23,050 nt of DNA from a virus. How positions within the stretch are numbered: position 1 is the first letter of the stretch; each line of letters opens with the position of its first letter. This document shows positions 12,150 to 21,946 of this stretch, one piece after another. The stretch is from IMG/VR virus record IMGVR_UViG_3300009094_000076, positions 1-23,050 of that record; one strand, written 5' to 3'. The notes under the pieces were generated by a model. That model was given only the letters and a program-made list of their open reading frames with translations, searched no databases and was not told where the DNA came from. A program made the position numbers and the translations under genes.

Positions 12150-14459
12150 ATGCCTACCGTTATCTCGCCGCAGCCGTGGCTCATCTTCCTCGACGACAAC
12201 GGGGCACCGGTCCCGAACGGACAACTCGCACTCTACGAAGCCGGGACGAGCACGCCGGTCACCGTCTACACCGACAGCTTGGCGTCGGTGCCGCACCCGT
12301 GGCCGATCACGCTCGACAGCGCCGGGCGCATTCCTGGCGGGCTGTTCATCCTGCCGGAGGTGGCTTACAAGTTCGTCCTGCACCAGCCGAAGCTCGCCAA
12401 TCTCGACCTTACGGGCGCGATCATCAAGTCGCAAGACAACGTCATGGGGCACGGCGGCAAGGTCAACGTCTCGGGCAGCGTGCCCGACTCGGGACAGTTG
12501 CCGGGCACCGGCGAGCCGGGGGACGCCTACATTTCGGCCGACGACGGGCACCTCTGGATCTGGGATGACATCAACGGCGTCTGGGTCGATGTCGGCGCAG
12601 TGCAAGGCCCGCCCGGGCAGACCGGCCCGGTGGGACCGATGGGACCGCAGGGGCCAATCGGCCTGACCGGCGCGCAGGGCGATCCGGGGCCGCAGGGCAT
12701 CCCCGGTGCCACGGGGGCAACCGGCCCGCCCGGTACGCCCGGCGCAGACGGCACGGACGGCCTCGACGGCGCACCGGGCGCACCGGGGCCGCAGGGACCG
12801 CAGGGCATCCAGGGCATCCCCGGCCCTGAAGGCGAAGGCCAGATCGGCCCACAGGGGCCGCAGGGCGAGCCCGGTCCCATCGGGCCGTCAGGCCCGCCAG
12901 GACCGCAGGGCGAGACGGGCGCCATCGGCCCGGCGGGCCCGGCGGGCACGGCGGGACCGCACGCCGCCACGCACCGCACCGGCGGCTCGGACCCCGTCGC
13001 GCTCGACGCCGCGCAGATCACGACCGGGCAGTTCGTGGACGCGCGGCTCTCCGCGAACGTCGCGCTCGAAAACGTCGTGAACACGTTCGCGTTCCCGCAG
13101 ATCATTGCGACCCAGGCGGCGCTGCTCCGGCTCGTGGACACGGTCGCGCCGGTCGATGCCAAGGTCTGGCAGGTCATGAGCAGCGGTGGCCCGCTCTACC
13201 TGCAGGCGACGAACGACGCGGTCAGTCTGGAGCAGGGCAGCTTCCGCGTCGAGCGCAACGGCACCACCATTCAGACCGGCTCGATCAACGCCACGGGCAG
13301 TGGCACCACGCCCCTGAATGCCGCGAACCTGACCGGCCAAGTGCTCGATGCGCGGCTGTCGCCGAACGTCGCACTGGAGAACGTCACCAATACCTTCCTG
13401 GCCTCGCAGTACATCGTCGCGCCGTCCGCGCATCTCCTGCTCCAAGACACGAACGGCACGGCGAACCAGCGGCTAACGCGGCTGATCCAGGCCGGGAACC
13501 TCACCATCATCCAGACGCTGGACGATGCCCAATCGGGCGAGCAGGGGCGTCTGGCGATGGACCGGCTGGGTAACGTCAGCCTCTCGGGCACCATCAATGC
13601 CACGAGCAGCGGCACCACGCCGCTCCTTGCCGCGAACATCGTCGGCCCGATTCCTGACGCGAAGCTGACCGCGAACGTCCTGAAGTATGCGGGCGGGTAT
13701 CCCGGCGGCACCGCCAACTTCCTCCGCGCCGATGGGAACTTTGCCCCGACGCCGTCCGGGCGGGTGATCGGCACGCTGTCGATTCCTGGCGCGTCCCTGA
13801 TCGACGTGACCGGCCTCGACATCGTGAACTACACGGGGGCCGGGAACTTCACGATGTATGGGTTCTTCGGCGGCGTCGAGGGGCAACAGATCCTCATCAA
13901 GAACCTGTCGGCGTCGAATGTCTTTCTCCCGCACCAATCGGGCAACGCCGCCGTGGGCTACAAGCTGTTCAACGCCGTGAGCGTCGGGCCGACGCCGCTG
14001 GTGGGCAACAGGTCGTGGGCGCGCTACCTCTACACCAACGGCTCATGGTTCCTGACCGGACATGAGCAGGGCGACCCCTACACGGAAGCCTACGACGCGG
14101 GCAACTACCGGGGCCTGAACGACACGTTTTCGTGGGTGGTGGAAGCGGGCGACATTCTCGCGGACAACTGGTACGTGTCCGGTCGCCTCTGTACCTACAA
14201 CTTTTATCTCGTCAACACGAGTATCGGCGGTGCGGCGGTGGGGGCCTCGCTCACGCGGCAGATCCCGCAGGGGTGGTCGCAGATCAGCGGGAACGGCGTG
14301 TCGATGTGCGCGCTGGGCGGCGTGGCGGGGCAACCGAATGGCGTGGCCTCGACCGGGTATGGCGGGCGCGTAACCTTTGGCCGAATGGATCAGGCCAACT
14401 GGCCCAACGTCAACAACAGCATCGCGGTCATTGGGCAGCACCAGTTCATGCTGTCGTAG
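12150..14459 (+). CDS. Tail fibre protein, long paralogue with collagen-like shaft
   Basis: A 769-aa fibre. Residues 5-100 are the same anchor domain as in the preceding gene. Residues about 120-150 form a small module (ADDGHLWIWDDINGVWVDVG). Residues 153-270 are about 40 Gly-X-Y triplets with one phase break near GPEGEGQIGPQ, expected to form a collagen-like triple helix. HAATHRTGGSDP then leads into three repeats of the type DARLSANVALENVVNTF (about 293-313 and 397-417, and a degenerate copy near 500), probably trimeric coiled or beta shaft. Residues about 537-769 are the tip domain shared with the short fibre. The ribosome site is weak, so translation may depend on the upstream fibre gene. 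Confidence 0.9.
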   Translation: MPTVISPQPWLIFLDDNGAPVPNGQLALYEAGTSTPVTVYTDSLASVPHPWPITLDSAGRIPGGLFILPEVAYKFVLHQPKLANLDLTGAIIKSQDNVMGHGGKVNVSGSVPDSGQLPGTGEPGDAYISADDGHLWIWDDINGVWVDVGAVQGPPGQTGPVGPMGPQGPIGLTGAQGDPGPQGIPGATGATGPPGTPGADGTDGLDGAPGAPGPQGPQGIQGIPGPEGEGQIGPQGPQGEPGPIGPSGPPGPQGETGAIGPAGPAGTAGPHAATHRTGGSDPVALDAAQITTGQFVDARLSANVALENVVNTFAFPQIIATQAALLRLVDTVAPVDAKVWQVMSSGGPLYLQATNDAVSLEQGSFRVERNGTTIQTGSINATGSGTTPLNAANLTGQVLDARLSPNVALENVTNTFLASQYIVAPSAHLLLQDTNGTANQRLTRLIQAGNLTIIQTLDDAQSGEQGRLAMDRLGNVSLSGTINATSSGTTPLLAANIVGPIPDAKLTANVLKYAGGYPGGTANFLRADGNFAPTPSGRVIGTLSIPGASLIDVTGLDIVNYTGAGNFTMYGFFGGVEGQQILIKNLSASNVFLPHQSGNAAVGYKLFNAVSVGPTPLVGNRSWARYLYTNGSWFLTGHEQGDPYTEAYDAGNYRGLNDTFSWVVEAGDILADNWYVSGRLCTYNFYLVNTSIGGAAVGASLTRQIPQGWSQISGNGVSMCALGGVAGQPNGVASTGYGGRVTFGRMDQANWPNVNNSIAVIGQHQFMLS
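12606..12960 (+). repeat. Collagen-like Gly-X-Y coding repeat
   Basis: A run of 9-base units encoding Gly-X-Y triplets inside the long tail fibre, with GGN at every third codon and frequent CCG and CAG. It explains the locally repetitive GC-rich pattern and is a likely site of copy-number change by slippage or recombination. One phase interruption lies near 12826-12846. Confidence 0.9.
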
Positions 14460-15606: not shown

Positions 15607-16350
15607 TTATCGGCGACGGCGATACGCGAGCCCCGCGAGCCCCAGGCCCAGGAGCGACAGCGACACCGGCTCAGGCACGGCTGCCACGTCCGTGACCTGC
15701 GTCTGCCCACGGCTGATGAGCCGCCCACTGCCTTCCAGCAGCATGTCGAACCCCAGCGTCATCGAGAACGGACCCGCCGCCCCGAACGGCGCGGGGCCGT
15801 AGTTCACCGCGAACGAATCCACGATGCCCACGCCGGTGTCGGTGAACGTCGAGATCAGGGTGCCGGGCCGGTCGGTCGCGGTCTGCGCGCCGATGGCGTT
15901 CAGCGCGTCCGCGTAGAACGAGTAGGTGGCGAACGAGCCTTCCGCCGTCTGCCACGTTCCGCTCCCGCTGTTGGCAATGAAGCTGGTCGGGCCGGGGAAG
16001 CCGTCTGCGCTGATCGTGGATTCCAGCGTGATCTGGCCCGCCGTCGTGTTCTGAATCGTCAGCGACGAACTGTTGATGACGTTCAGCGCGGGGCCGTTCG
16101 CCTCGCTGTGCAGCGAGCCTTCGATCAGGAGCCCGCCGATCATGGCGGTGCCCAGGTCGAGAATGCCCACGGTCGGGTTCAGGTCGTTGACCTGCGTGCC
16201 GTAGAGGCAGGGCGCGTTCTGATCTGTCGCGCAAAACAACGTGCCGCTGTTCACGTTTCCAGCAATGGTGAGCGGTGCGGCATCCGCGCGCGGGGCTAGC
16301 ATTAGGATCAGTCCCAGCGTCATCACGCTGGCGGTTACACGGTTACGCAT
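15607..16350 (-). CDS. PEP-CTERM sorting-domain protein, exported
   Basis: A 247-aa predicted secreted protein. The N-terminus is a signal peptide: MRNR, a hydrophobic core (VTASVMTLGLILMLAP), and a likely cleavage after RADA. The mature part is Ser/Thr/Gly/Asn-rich and predicted all-beta. The C-terminus is a textbook PEP-CTERM signal: VPEP, a hydrophobic helix (VSLSLLGLGLAGLAY) and RRRR before the stop. In bacteria such tails are cut by exosortase, with products destined for the surface or exopolysaccharide. I chose the ATG at 16350 because the signal peptide starts there; it overlaps the end of the HNH gene by 8 bases (ATGCGTAA). Phage carriage of such a protein is unusual. Its role (surface change, exclusion, biofilm) is unknown. 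Confidence 0.88.
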   Translation of the reverse strand: MRNRVTASVMTLGLILMLAPRADAAPLTIAGNVNSGTLFCATDQNAPCLYGTQVNDLNPTVGILDLGTAMIGGLLIEGSLHSEANGPALNVINSSSLTIQNTTAGQITLESTISADGFPGPTSFIANSGSGTWQTAEGSFATYSFYADALNAIGAQTATDRPGTLISTFTDTGVGIVDSFAVNYGPAPFGAAGPFSMTLGFDMLLEGSGRLISRGQTQVTDVAAVPEPVSLSLLGLGLAGLAYRRRR

Positions 16351-16750
16351 TTGTGCTCTCGCTTTCCTTAAGGCGGTGATACCGCCGTAGTTCTCGTTGC
16401 GCGTGACACACCCGACAGTAGCGCCCATCGCTCCTGCGGGTTAGCGGGTGTCCGCGTAGGCACTTCGTCTTGCGTGCGTTCACCGCCGCAGGGCTTTCCC
16501 CACGGCGCTTGTTCTCAGCCAGCGTCACCGGCTCCAAATGGGCCGGATTGACGCAGGCCCGGTTTCGGCAGAGATGATCCAGCGTTAAGCCTGAGGGGAT
16601 TGGGCCGACGAGCCATGCATACGCGAGGCGATGGGCCATCCTGGCATTGCCGTCAAGGTGGAATGCCCCATAGCCGTAGTGATTCAGCGCCCCGGTCCAG
16701 AGCCAGCACTCAGCGGTCTTATTGACCTTCGACCAGAAGCGATTCTGCAT
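16343..16750 (-). CDS. HNH endonuclease with C-terminal zinc motif
   Basis: A 135-aa free-standing HNH nuclease. Its core is of the phage HNH_3-like type: CWLWTGALNHYGYGAF, MAHRLAYAW, then LDHLCRNRACVNPAHLEPVT, giving His59, Asn68 and His71 as the likely catalytic set. The C-terminus has Cys97-x3-His101 and Cys112-x2-Cys115, a probable zinc site, with a basic end. Family members nick or cut DNA; many are selfish homing enzymes. No clear ribosome site precedes the ATG, which is 19 bases from the previous stop, so coupling is likely. Its end overlaps the PEP-CTERM start. It is one of three HNH genes in this operon. Confidence 0.88.
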   Translation of the reverse strand: MQNRFWSKVNKTAECWLWTGALNHYGYGAFHLDGNARMAHRLAYAWLVGPIPSGLTLDHLCRNRACVNPAHLEPVTLAENKRRGESPAAVNARKTKCLRGHPLTRRSDGRYCRVCHAQRELRRYHRLKESESTNA

Positions 16751-18848: not shown

Positions 18849-19343
18849 TTAGAAGGGCGCGAACGGGTCGGCGGCGGGCTCCGGCTCCTCGTTGAAGTTC
18901 TTCGCGGTCGGCGGCGTGTAGCCTGCGCGGATGCGCGCGGCCCAGCCCTTCGCGCGCCCGGCGTCGAGCCGGTTGTAGCGCGCCTTCTTCTGCGCCTCGG
19001 GGTCGGTGTCGGCCGCGTTCTGCGCCGCGAAGTAGAGCAGGCGGTCGGCCACCAGATCGAGATACTCGGCCGGGCACTCGGAGAAGTGCTTGCCCTGCAT
19101 CGAGGGGCCGGTCCAGTCGCGCGGCGACTTCGCCTTGACCTCGGGGTCGCCGTAGGGGCCGTCGAGGTCGTAGTCGCTCGCGACCGGCGGCGGCGTGCCC
19201 TGCCCGGTCGGGACATACGCCGGGCCGTTCCACGGGTTCTGCGGGGCGGGGGCGGTCGCGGCGCGCGCAGCGAGGGCGATGAGTGTGTCGAGCTTCGTGT
19301 TGATCTGCTTCAGAACGTCGAGGGCGTCGTTACCTGCGGCCAT
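18849..19343 (-). CDS. Conserved phage protein associated with recombination genes
   Basis: A 164-aa protein starting at the ATG at 19343, where AAGGAG lies 8 bases upstream; an upstream TTG is less likely. Residues 5-30 form a helix, probably coiled coil (DALDVLKQINTKLDTLIALA). The core is a block I know from many phage recombination clusters: SDYDLDGPYGDPEVKAKSPR, DWTGPSMQGKHFSECPAEYL, LVADRLLYFAAQ and ARYNRLDAGRAKGWAARIR. Its function is not established; neighbours are usually annealing proteins, exonucleases or ssDNA-binding proteins, as here. The C-terminus is acidic and ends in a short PFAPF, reminiscent of the acidic-aromatic tip of ssDNA-binding proteins, which is only suggestive. Confidence 0.75.
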   Translation of the reverse strand: MAAGNDALDVLKQINTKLDTLIALAARAATAPAPQNPWNGPAYVPTGQGTPPPVASDYDLDGPYGDPEVKAKSPRDWTGPSMQGKHFSECPAEYLDLVADRLLYFAAQNAADTDPEAQKKARYNRLDAGRAKGWAARIRAGYTPPTAKNFNEEPEPAADPFAPF

Positions 19344-19348
19344 GATGG

Positions 19349-19843
19349 TTACTCCTTCCAAGAAACACCACGAGAGATGCGAGAAACTTGCGAGCGATCT
19401 AGCTTGTAACCGGCGGCGATGTCCTTTACTCGGCGACCTTCTGCCCGCGCGGCCCGAATCGCCGCCACGTCGGCCTCTGACACCTTGGCGCGCGGGTGCT
19501 GCGCCCGCCGCCGTGTTGCTTCGGGCTTGGTGTAGTGGCCGTTGGCCGCGCCGCGCGCATGGCGACCCTTGATGAACATGTCACGGTTGTTGTCCACGCG
19601 CGTTCCGAGAAAGAGGTGCGCGGGGTTTACACACGGCGGATTGTCGCAGCGATGCAGCACACACAGGCCGGTGGGTATCTCGCCGTGAAACAACTCCCAT
19701 GAGACGCGATGCGCCTCCCTGATCTTTCCGTTCAGCCAGAAGCGGCCGTAGCCAAACTTCGCCAAGGCCCCGCGCCAAGGCCAACAGGTCGAGTCGCTGA
19801 CCGGTGACACGCTTGCCCAAAACAAGGGCACCCTGCTGCTCAC
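19349..19843 (-). CDS. HNH endonuclease with C-terminal HTH
   Basis: A 164-aa free-standing HNH nuclease. The core reads CWPWRGALAKFGYGRFWLNG, EAHRVSWELF, CVLHRCDNPPCVNPAHLFLG, with His64, Asn73 and His76 as the likely catalytic residues. Residues about 118-162 (VSEADVAAIRAARAEGRRVK, then IAAGYKLDRSQVSRISRG) form a helix-turn-helix that probably directs site recognition. The start is GTG, overlapping the exonuclease-annealase stop (GTGA), preceded by GAGGTGG. Family members are often homing enzymes that invade phage operons. It separates the fusion gene from the recombination-associated gene. Confidence 0.88.
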   Translation of the reverse strand: MSSRVPLFWASVSPVSDSTCWPWRGALAKFGYGRFWLNGKIREAHRVSWELFHGEIPTGLCVLHRCDNPPCVNPAHLFLGTRVDNNRDMFIKGRHARGAANGHYTKPEATRRRAQHPRAKVSEADVAAIRAARAEGRRVKDIAAGYKLDRSQVSRISRGVSWKE

Positions 19844-21237
19844 TCCACCTCGCTCGGCTCGTAAAGCCCCATCACGATGTCCGCGTAGACCAGCCGCGCC
19901 AGCTTCGCGGACGCACGAGCGATTAGCATGTCGGCAGGGTGCTTCGCCCATCCGCTGCCGGGCTTCACGAGGTCGGCCATCCTCGCGTCGTCCATCGAGA
20001 ACGAAAGACTGACCTCGGGGTCGTCGCCGCGCTTGGTGACGAACGTCGCGCGCTCGTTCGTGCGCTCGACGCACCTGAAATACTTCGCGGCCCCAGACCG
20101 GAGCACGAGCGCCCGAATCGCGTCCGCGGACAACACCGGCTTCCCAGAAACGATGTGAAAGGCACGCAGCGCGTGCATCGCAGGCAGGCCCATCTCACGA
20201 CCGGCCATGATCGTCATCAGCACCGCGGGGGCGTTCCCATACGAACCGAACAGGCGTGAATCCATCGCCCACTTCGCCAGCGTCACGGCCTCAGTCAACG
20301 TCTGCGGCTCCAACTGCCGCGTGTAGTCGTGCTCGACCATCACCGGCACCAGCGCGGTTGTCTGCTCCTCGCGCACCGGCTCCGGCTTCGTGGGTTCCGG
20401 CGCGGGCGACGGCTGGCCGGTGGGGGTGTCGGCGGTCACGGGGGCGGGCTCAGTCTCGAACAGGGGCTGGGGGCGTTCCACGGCAATTTCCTCGAAGGGG
20501 ATGGGGGCATCGGTGCGGAGCGCGATCAGCGCCCGCACGGCATCGACACGGGGGAAAAACTCGGCGAGCGACGACTGCACCGTCGCGCTCAACGTCGCGG
20601 GCTCCTCGGCCCACGCCGTGTGCAGCCCTTCGAGCGTGCCGTGCTGCGCGAGCAGCCGCGCCGCGATCACCGGGCCGATCTTCGACGCGCCCTTCACGTT
20701 GTCGGAGGCATCGCCGACAAGACACAGGAAGTCAGGCACCTGTTCCGGCCGCACGCCGAACTTCTGCATGACCGCGTCCGGTCCCAGCTCCGCGCCGTCC
20801 TTCAGCGACTTGATGTGGACGCGGTCGCTCACGAGCGCGAGCAGGTCCTTGTCGGCCGAGGCCACGAGCACGCGGGTGTCGGGCGATTCGAGCGCGAGCC
20901 GCGTGGCGGTCGCGATCACGTCGTCGGCCTCGAAGCCCTCGGCCATCCACACCGGCACGCCCTCGGCCTTCAGCGCCTCGACCACGAGGTCGAGCTGATG
21001 GTAGAGCGGCGCGCGGCCCTCGCTGCTGCGCTGCGCCTTGTAGGTCGGGTCGAGGTCGCGGCGGAAGCTCTTACGCGAATCGACAGCGACCGCGGCGTAG
21101 GGCTGGCCGTGCAGCAGCCCGCGCACGCGCGCCAGGATCTGCTCGGAGGTCGCGTTCGGGTTCGGGTCCGACGCGGCCATGTGCCAGATCGGGTAGCCGA
21201 TGCTGGCGAGGTCGATGAAGAGCGCGGTGGTGCTCAT
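19840..21237 (-). CDS. FEN-type 5'-3' exonuclease fused to a putative RecT-like annealing domain
   Basis: A 465-aa two-domain protein. Residues 1-255 are a 5' nuclease of the polymerase I/T5 FEN type with all expected acidic metal ligands: Asp9, Asp53, Glu103-Ala-Asp105-Asp106, Asp129 and Asp131 (SADKDLL), Asp176 and Asp179 (GDASDN), followed by the helix-hairpin-helix KIGPVIAARLL. The basic arch segment SFRRDLDPTYKAQR is present. Residues 260-298 are a Pro/Glu linker. Residues 312-465 (LFGSYGNAPAVLMTIMAGRE, LRAFHIVSGKPVLSADAIRA, ATFVTKRGDDPEV, HPADMLIARASAKLARLVY, MGLYEPSE) resemble phage RecT-like single-strand annealing proteins; this is from memory. One polypeptide could resect DNA and anneal the product. 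It overlaps both neighbours by four bases. Confidence 0.85.
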   Translation of the reverse strand: MSTTALFIDLASIGYPIWHMAASDPNPNATSEQILARVRGLLHGQPYAAVAVDSRKSFRRDLDPTYKAQRSSEGRAPLYHQLDLVVEALKAEGVPVWMAEGFEADDVIATATRLALESPDTRVLVASADKDLLALVSDRVHIKSLKDGAELGPDAVMQKFGVRPEQVPDFLCLVGDASDNVKGASKIGPVIAARLLAQHGTLEGLHTAWAEEPATLSATVQSSLAEFFPRVDAVRALIALRTDAPIPFEEIAVERPQPLFETEPAPVTADTPTGQPSPAPEPTKPEPVREEQTTALVPVMVEHDYTRQLEPQTLTEAVTLAKWAMDSRLFGSYGNAPAVLMTIMAGREMGLPAMHALRAFHIVSGKPVLSADAIRALVLRSGAAKYFRCVERTNERATFVTKRGDDPEVSLSFSMDDARMADLVKPGSGWAKHPADMLIARASAKLARLVYADIVMGLYEPSEVE

Positions 21238-21461
21238 CGCGTCACCGGCACGAGGTCGAGCGCGCGGGCGCTCGCGGTCAGAATCGCGCCGAGCTGCTCA
21301 CACTGCTCGGCATCGAGGTAGACAGTCACCGTCTGCCGTCCGTTGCCGAGGGCACCGGAGGAGATCGAGAGCTGCAGGGTGGAGGCGGGACCGGCCGAGC
21401 AGACGATGGGGCCGTTCCACGCATTCGGGATCTCTATCGTTTTCAATCGAGGCGCTTCCAT
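21234..21461 (-). CDS. Small hypothetical protein upstream of the exonuclease-annealase
   Basis: A 75-aa protein, mostly beta (IEIPNAWNGPIVCSAGP, STLQLSISSG, RQTVTVYLDAEQCEQLGAIL) with a final helix. The ATG at 21461 is fixed by AGGAG 4 bases upstream, which lies inside the end of the HNH gene; the two genes overlap by 19 bases. Its stop overlaps the next ATG (ATGA). No family is recognised. Tight coupling suggests a function linked to recombination. Confidence 0.7.
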   Translation of the reverse strand: MEAPRLKTIEIPNAWNGPIVCSAGPASTLQLSISSGALGNGRQTVTVYLDAEQCEQLGAILTASARALDLVPVTR

Positions 21462-21946
21462 GTTTCTCCTGAAAGAGCGGCGCGGATCGCGTGCCTGCTC
21501 ACGCCGAACCGGGCCATCCATCGTGCGACGGAGTGCCGCTCGCGAACCTGCGCGCGGAGCCATCGAACATCGTCACTCGTCAGCTTCGACTTCCAGTGCC
21601 CGTCGCCGCGCGGGAGCCGTCCCTTCGCGCTCGCGTCGGCGTGGTTGTCGGCGCACGTCCCCAGGAACAAGTGCGCCGGATTCACGCACGCCGGAACGTC
21701 GCAGTCGTGGCAGACCTGCAAGTCGCTCGGCGGCATCTCGTCGGCGTTCGCGAACATCCACGCGAGCCGGTGCGCCTTCTTTGGACCACCCCCGCCGTAG
21801 CACTGCGTGCCGTAGCCGTCCTTGTCCACCGGCCCGAGCCACAACCAGCACGCCTCGGGGTCGCGCACGGCAACGCGCGCCCAGAATCCTTCGCGGGTCA
21901 GTCGGGGCTTCGGCACGGCCACAAGCGTAGGCGCAGTGCATTGCAC
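21443..21946 (-). CDS. HNH endonuclease with C-terminal HTH, first gene of the leftward operon
   Basis: Up to 167 aa. The core reads CWLWLGPVDKDGYGTQCYGG, KAHRLAWMF, LQVCHDCDVPACVNPAHLFL, with His80, Asn89 and His92 as likely catalytic residues. Residues about 121-164 (LTSDDVRWLRAQVRERHSVA, MARFGVSRHAIRAALSG) form a C-terminal helix-turn-helix, as in the other HTH-bearing HNH gene here. The start is uncertain: GTG at 21946 lies inside the candidate promoter spacer, while GTGs at 21922 and 21916 lie near its predicted transcript start. The gene is the first of the leftward operon, divergent from a small HTH regulator. Homing activity is the default guess. Confidence 0.85.
   Translation of the reverse strand: MQCTAPTLVAVPKPRLTREGFWARVAVRDPEACWLWLGPVDKDGYGTQCYGGGGPKKAHRLAWMFANADEMPPSDLQVCHDCDVPACVNPAHLFLGTCADNHADASAKGRLPRGDGHWKSKLTSDDVRWLRAQVRERHSVARWMARFGVSRHAIRAALSGETWKRLD

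Follow-up and report, generated by a model that had tools for sequence, protein, structure and literature searches.

We identified a viral gene that encodes a FEN-family 5′ nuclease and a RecT-family annealing core in a single polypeptide, and our favored interpretation is that its product serves as a one-polypeptide form of the two-component phage recombinase, with the FEN domain resecting DNA before annealing by the tethered core. No biochemistry is available, and we hold this interpretation as somewhat better than an even bet. The fusion and its conservation, the catalytic residues, the boundary of the core, the replacement of the operon's exonuclease, and the association with a second protein, P2, are established by the observations below.

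The analyzed stretch of DNA (the window) is an entire IMG/VR record of 23,050 bases and is possibly a fragment. A PHROG profile search found a phage head-closure gene in it. Features are listed in Table 1.

Table 1. Positions of the fusion gene, its domains, and other features in the window
Feature	Position	Strand	Description
FEN-annealase fusion gene	19840..21237	minus	465 aa; ATG start; stop included
FEN 5′ nuclease domain	20479..21237	minus	Residues 1 to 253; assigned from Pfam, AlphaFold model with Foldseek, and ligand conservation
Disordered Pro/Glu linker	20314..20478	minus	Residues ~254 to 308; pLDDT of <50 over residues 264 to 307
RecT-family annealing core (predicted)	19843..20313	minus	Residues 309 to 465; ends at equivalent of Redβ residue 176; without C-terminal domain
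P2, co-conserved accessory protein	18849..19343	minus	164 aa; acidic tail; terminal aromatic residue
HNH_3 endonuclease gene between fusion and P2	19349..19843	minus	GTG start overlaps fusion stop (GTGA); start inferred from sequence
HNH_3 homing-type endonuclease gene	21443..21946	minus	
HNH_3 homing-type endonuclease gene	16343..16750	minus	
PEP-CTERM sorting signal protein	15607..16428	minus	PF07589 and TIGR02595 above cutoff
Probable tail fiber	12150..14459	plus	Collagen-like Gly-X-Y repeats (PF01391), then repeated domain units

Several features of the window lie outside the fusion. All three HNH_3 genes are of the homing type; two of them flank the fusion, and one of these separates it from P2. 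The PEP-CTERM protein has a counterpart in a related contig, L003 (9687-10310, plus strand; TIGR02595 above cutoff). Such proteins, which are unusual on a phage, are likely exosortase substrates of a Gram-negative host and thereby a clue to the host.

Domains and conservation of the fusion

On the evidence of sequence and structural models, the N-terminal half is a FEN-family 5′ nuclease, for which 5′ exonuclease and flap endonuclease activities are inferred. It matched Pfam 5_3_exonuc_N (E = 2.5e-25) and 5_3_exonuc (E = 2e-17), and both modules of the bacterial 5′ nuclease (PF02739 and PF01367) were matched across residues 44 to 251. The AlphaFold model of the whole fusion protein (pLDDT of 81.7) has a confident N-terminal domain, for which the best Foldseek matches were Mycobacterium smegmatis FEN and E. 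coli ExoIX; T5 D15 was also matched. The initial annotation, made from the sequence alone, had described a complete FEN nuclease with all nine acidic ligands. Across 53 distinct fusion sequences, these residues (D9, D53, E103, D105, D106, D129, D131, D176, and D179 of the window protein) are invariant in every sequence that fills the alignment column, in full agreement with that description. An Arg59/Tyr66-Lys67/Arg70 motif is also invariant in the fusions and matches PolI-type FEN sequence.

The stretch that joins the two halves is, as originally proposed, Pro/Glu rich, and it is predicted to be disordered. The linker sequence differs among relatives, and its length, measured between HMM boundaries, ranges from 35 to 136 aa. 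A short acidic motif, DI.EAMPT, recurs in otherwise variable linkers (L013, L016, L018, L025, L051, L060, and others) and is possibly a partner-binding site; it is absent from the window protein.

The likeness of the last ~150 residues to RecT was the weaker half of the initial annotation. Profile comparisons support the assignment of this half to the RecT family as an annealing core, with annealing activity inferred. The core of the window protein matched PHROG phrog_561, "RecT-like ssDNA annealing protein" (E = 7.5e-18), a profile matched by 17/17 fusion cores scanned; Pfam RecT was matched by 14/17 (best E = 5.8e-7), and the window's own core matched PHROG profiles only, not Pfam RecT. In comparisons with known annealases by hhalign, the core profile aligned to Redβ residues 98 to 176 (E = 2.4e-4; hhalign probability, 44%); no significant alignment was obtained with E. 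coli RecT. The Redβ alignment pairs W430 with W143 and R448 with R161, and these residues are kept in 51/53 and 52/53 fusion sequences, respectively. In the Redβ structure paper, W143 is said to be conserved almost universally, and R161 to take part in oligomerization and DNA binding (PMC9512822). In the AlphaFold model, helices and strands of the core extend from ~311 to ~462, after the disordered stretch (pLDDT of 58 to 96 over residues 311 to 460). Since Foldseek searches with the full-length model gave, within an E value of ≤0.001, FEN-family structures only and none that were annealase-like, the assignment of an annealase fold relies on profile matches and on secondary structure. A PDB profile search with the core gave a sole match, to a designed-repeat protein, which was judged spurious.

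A search for the domain pair in other genomes, fused or as adjacent genes, had been suggested as a check on the original reading. Queries with the C-terminal half, with the FEN half, and with P2, as well as with alignments of all three, gathered related loci, which were collapsed to 65 nonredundant IMG/VR clusters. FEN and core were encoded in one ORF in 41 of the 65 clusters and as separate genes in none. Another 20 core-bearing clusters lacked a fused FEN; two of these are cut at the contig start, and 18 encode separate annealases. Separate domains in all close relatives would have refuted the initial annotation, yet every relative with a core identity of at least 52% and an ORF not cut by the contig end is fused. 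Chance or an assembly error as the source of the fusion was rejected because 41 nonredundant contig clusters share this architecture. Extra N-terminal domains in three fusions (L035, L046, and L047) were also rejected; their N-terminal extensions are read-through of upstream frames.

Both domains are under purifying selection (dN/dS of 0.03 to 0.35 in closer pairs, with synonymous sites partly saturated). Fused sequences cluster in a tree of the core (1 to 2 changes, versus 20.8 in shuffles), and the separate annealases nearest to the fused clade are those of L181 and L182, loci that carry P2, a PD-(D/E)XK nuclease, and a separate RecT. Long branches and modest support make this placement provisional. 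A whole-protein pattern scan of viral contigs gave no match, and C-terminal and alignment queries were needed to find relatives. No record of a cultured phage covers 80% of the fusion protein. A first genome scan for prophages found no relative; among the matches listed in a second scan there were only FEN-only proteins, and rare prophage copies are not excluded.

Absence of the annealase tail and replacement of the exonuclease

Fused cores end where the Redβ annealing core ends. Only 0 to 12 aa follow the core in fused proteins, versus 77 to 183 aa in 18/18 intact unfused relatives, and the fusions thereby lack the C-terminal partner-binding domain of RecT/Redβ proteins. We read the missing domain as a loss within the RecT family, after which the core alone would suffice for annealing. 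Redβ residues 1 to 177 are enough for annealing, and residues 178 to 261 contact λ Exo and potentially SSB (PMC9512822). Without its C-terminal domain, part of whose function is contact with the exonuclease, Redβ retains annealing, but recombination in vivo is abolished (PMC5052646); the fusion must therefore compensate for the absence of this domain. We infer that a covalent tether would render the exonuclease-binding part redundant.

Gene content was examined in 30 long fusion contigs (38 to 64 kb). All 30 carry exactly one FEN, and none has YqaJ, DUF3799, or PDDEXK_1 above cutoff (0/30 for each; PDDEXK_1 gave one sub-threshold fragment). SSB and PolA were not found in these contigs either (0/30 for each). 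In contigs with separate annealases, FEN was not found (0/20), and most carry a YqaJ, PDDEXK_1, or DUF3799 exonuclease: YqaJ was present in 10/21, PDDEXK_1 was above cutoff in two more, and DUF3799 was present in two. Nucleases adjacent to the annealase in L005, L033, L036, L040, L181, L182, and L195 belong to these same families by Pfam, with that of L005 falling just under the YqaJ cutoff. Six contigs with separate annealases (L214, L215, L218, L219, L220, and L222; tails of 157 to 183 aa) yielded no YqaJ, DUF3799, FEN, or PDDEXK_1. A survey of Firmicutes found YqaJ or DUF3799 beside RecT (PMC8093625). In the fusion phages, FEN apparently stands in place of the PD-(D/E)XK exonuclease.

P2 follows the fusion in 38/41 clusters, in several relatives 3 bp past the fusion stop; it was not found within 5 kb of the fusion in L008 and L028. 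Its C-terminal residue is F, W, or Y in 46/55 copies, versus a background of 8%, and the protein often has an acidic, SSB-like tip (such as DDDIPF in L153 and L180 and DDDVPF in L004 and L194), of which the DPFAPF tip of the window P2 is a weaker example. P2 had no match in cultured phages, Pfam, or PHROG, and no PDB fold was matched; an OB-fold SSB domain was not detected, and the AlphaFold model is helical. P2 also lies directly behind a classical RecT in L188 (4866-5387) and L194 (4839-5411), together with a YqaJ and RecT pair in L195, and after a PD-(D/E)XK nuclease in L181 and L182, contigs that also encode a tailed, separate RecT-like protein. Its role, which is inferred, is probably to provide a connection with single-stranded DNA traffic or with SSB-binding partners of the host. 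The P2 proteins form an accessory family of phage recombination operons that is unannotated and has SSB-like tails.

Proposed mechanism and alternatives

In the mechanism that we favor, the FEN domain, acting as a 5′-to-3′ exonuclease and 5′-flap endonuclease, would act at breaks or genome ends and leave a 3′ single strand exposed. Held by a flexible tether (~35 to 136 residues across the family), the RecT core would coat this strand and anneal it to a complementary strand. The covalent linkage would take over from the exonuclease-binding C-terminal domain of separate annealases, and P2, through its SSB-like tip, would make the connection to single-stranded DNA traffic or SSB-binding host proteins. 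Both activities, their order, the hand-over of the strand, and the role of P2 are inferred in this scheme. The simplest history begins with an operon of annealase, exonuclease, and P2, in which FEN displaced the exonuclease and was fused to the annealase, whose tail was lost. More tentatively, and with rather less than even confidence, we suggest that these loci represent a third recombination-module architecture, in which a tethered FEN-annealase without a C-terminal domain is served by a dedicated P2, which would imitate the SSB tail and take on the recruitment of SSB-binding host factors.

PolI-type FENs act preferentially at flaps and nicks and show poor processivity on blunt ends, so long resection by the fusion is not guaranteed. 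Direct hand-over of the 3′ strand to the annealase, which the initial annotation had envisaged, is likewise an inference, and removal of 5′ flaps after annealing is not excluded. The core might instead anneal strands exposed by a host nuclease or a replication fork, with the tethered FEN removing 5′ flaps and displaced ends before ligation. FEN relatives are structure-specific flap endonucleases, the invariant Arg/Tyr-Lys/Arg motif fits a PolI-type enzyme, and a phage-encoded flap-trimming activity would be useful because fusion contigs lack PolA. The composition of the operons nevertheless makes this order of events unlikely, if still worth serious consideration: the nearest operons hold at that place PD-(D/E)XK exonucleases of the YqaJ, DUF2800, or DUF3799 type, which are known resecting partners of RecT (PMC8093625), and the fusion contigs have no other resecting nuclease of the YqaJ, PDDEXK_1, or DUF3799 families.

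The same exonuclease swap weighs against a role in replication, in which the fusion would remove RNA primers and process lagging strands and the core would only target the protein to single-stranded DNA. FEN is the classical primer-removal nuclease, and a primase-helicase-like gene lies upstream in L003, but P2 ties the fusion to recombination operons and RecT-type annealases are recombination proteins; we regard this role as improbable. Hardest to sustain is a reading of the C-terminal half as a degenerate RecT relative, which would only bind DNA or oligomerize and would have lost annealing. The absent C-terminal domain, the weak direct similarity to Redβ, and the undetected similarity to E. 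coli RecT could be cited for it; the preserved core length, the counterparts of Redβ W143 and R161 in 51 to 52 of 53 sequences, and the low dN/dS all speak against it, as does annealing by Redβ 1-177 without a C-terminal domain (PMC9512822).

In two-component recombination, the transfer of the strand from exonuclease to annealase is an open question. A natural fusion, with its fixed 1:1 stoichiometry, allows this hand-over to be tested by altering the tether. The family also suggests that covalent attachment of the nuclease makes the exonuclease-binding domain of an annealase dispensable and that a PD-(D/E)XK resector can be replaced by a FEN-type nuclease. As a compact system in a single gene, the fusion could be useful for recombineering.

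Relation to known recombination systems

A literature search found no description of a FEN/RecT or exonuclease/annealase fusion; its coverage was partial, and absence is no proof. The parts are already known, and it is for their combination that we found no described example. Nearest in fold or sequence to the FEN half are the N-terminal 5′ nuclease of DNA polymerase I, E. coli ExoIX/Xni, and T5 D15. These enzymes are polymerase fused or free-standing, and in the collections searched FEN is joined to an annealase only in the fusion family. In phage T7, the FEN-family 5′ exonuclease gp6 works with the annealing protein gp2.5 in recombination; unlike the fusion, these are products of separate genes, and gp2.5 is an OB-fold SSB rather than a RecT family member. 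The poxvirus FEN1-like protein G5 also links a FEN-type nuclease to viral homologous recombination, but it stands alone, and a review gives an annealing scheme that relies on I3 together with the E9 3′ exonuclease (PMC9415595).

The closest sequence relatives of the fusion core are phrog_561 and the RecT-like proteins of actinophage and Salinibacter phage. Relatives of the phrog_561 type are separate proteins that keep the long tails described above; YqaJ, DUF2800/PDDEXK_1, or DUF3799 neighbors them in related contigs, and no FEN was found in the contigs tested. Like RecE/RecT of the Rac prophage and λ Exo/Redβ, the fusion locus encodes a 5′ nuclease together with a RecT/Redβ-family core, one that ends at the equivalent of Redβ residue 176. 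It differs from both systems in being one polypeptide, in using a FEN rather than a PD-(D/E)XK nuclease, and in having an annealase without the C-terminal partner-binding domain.
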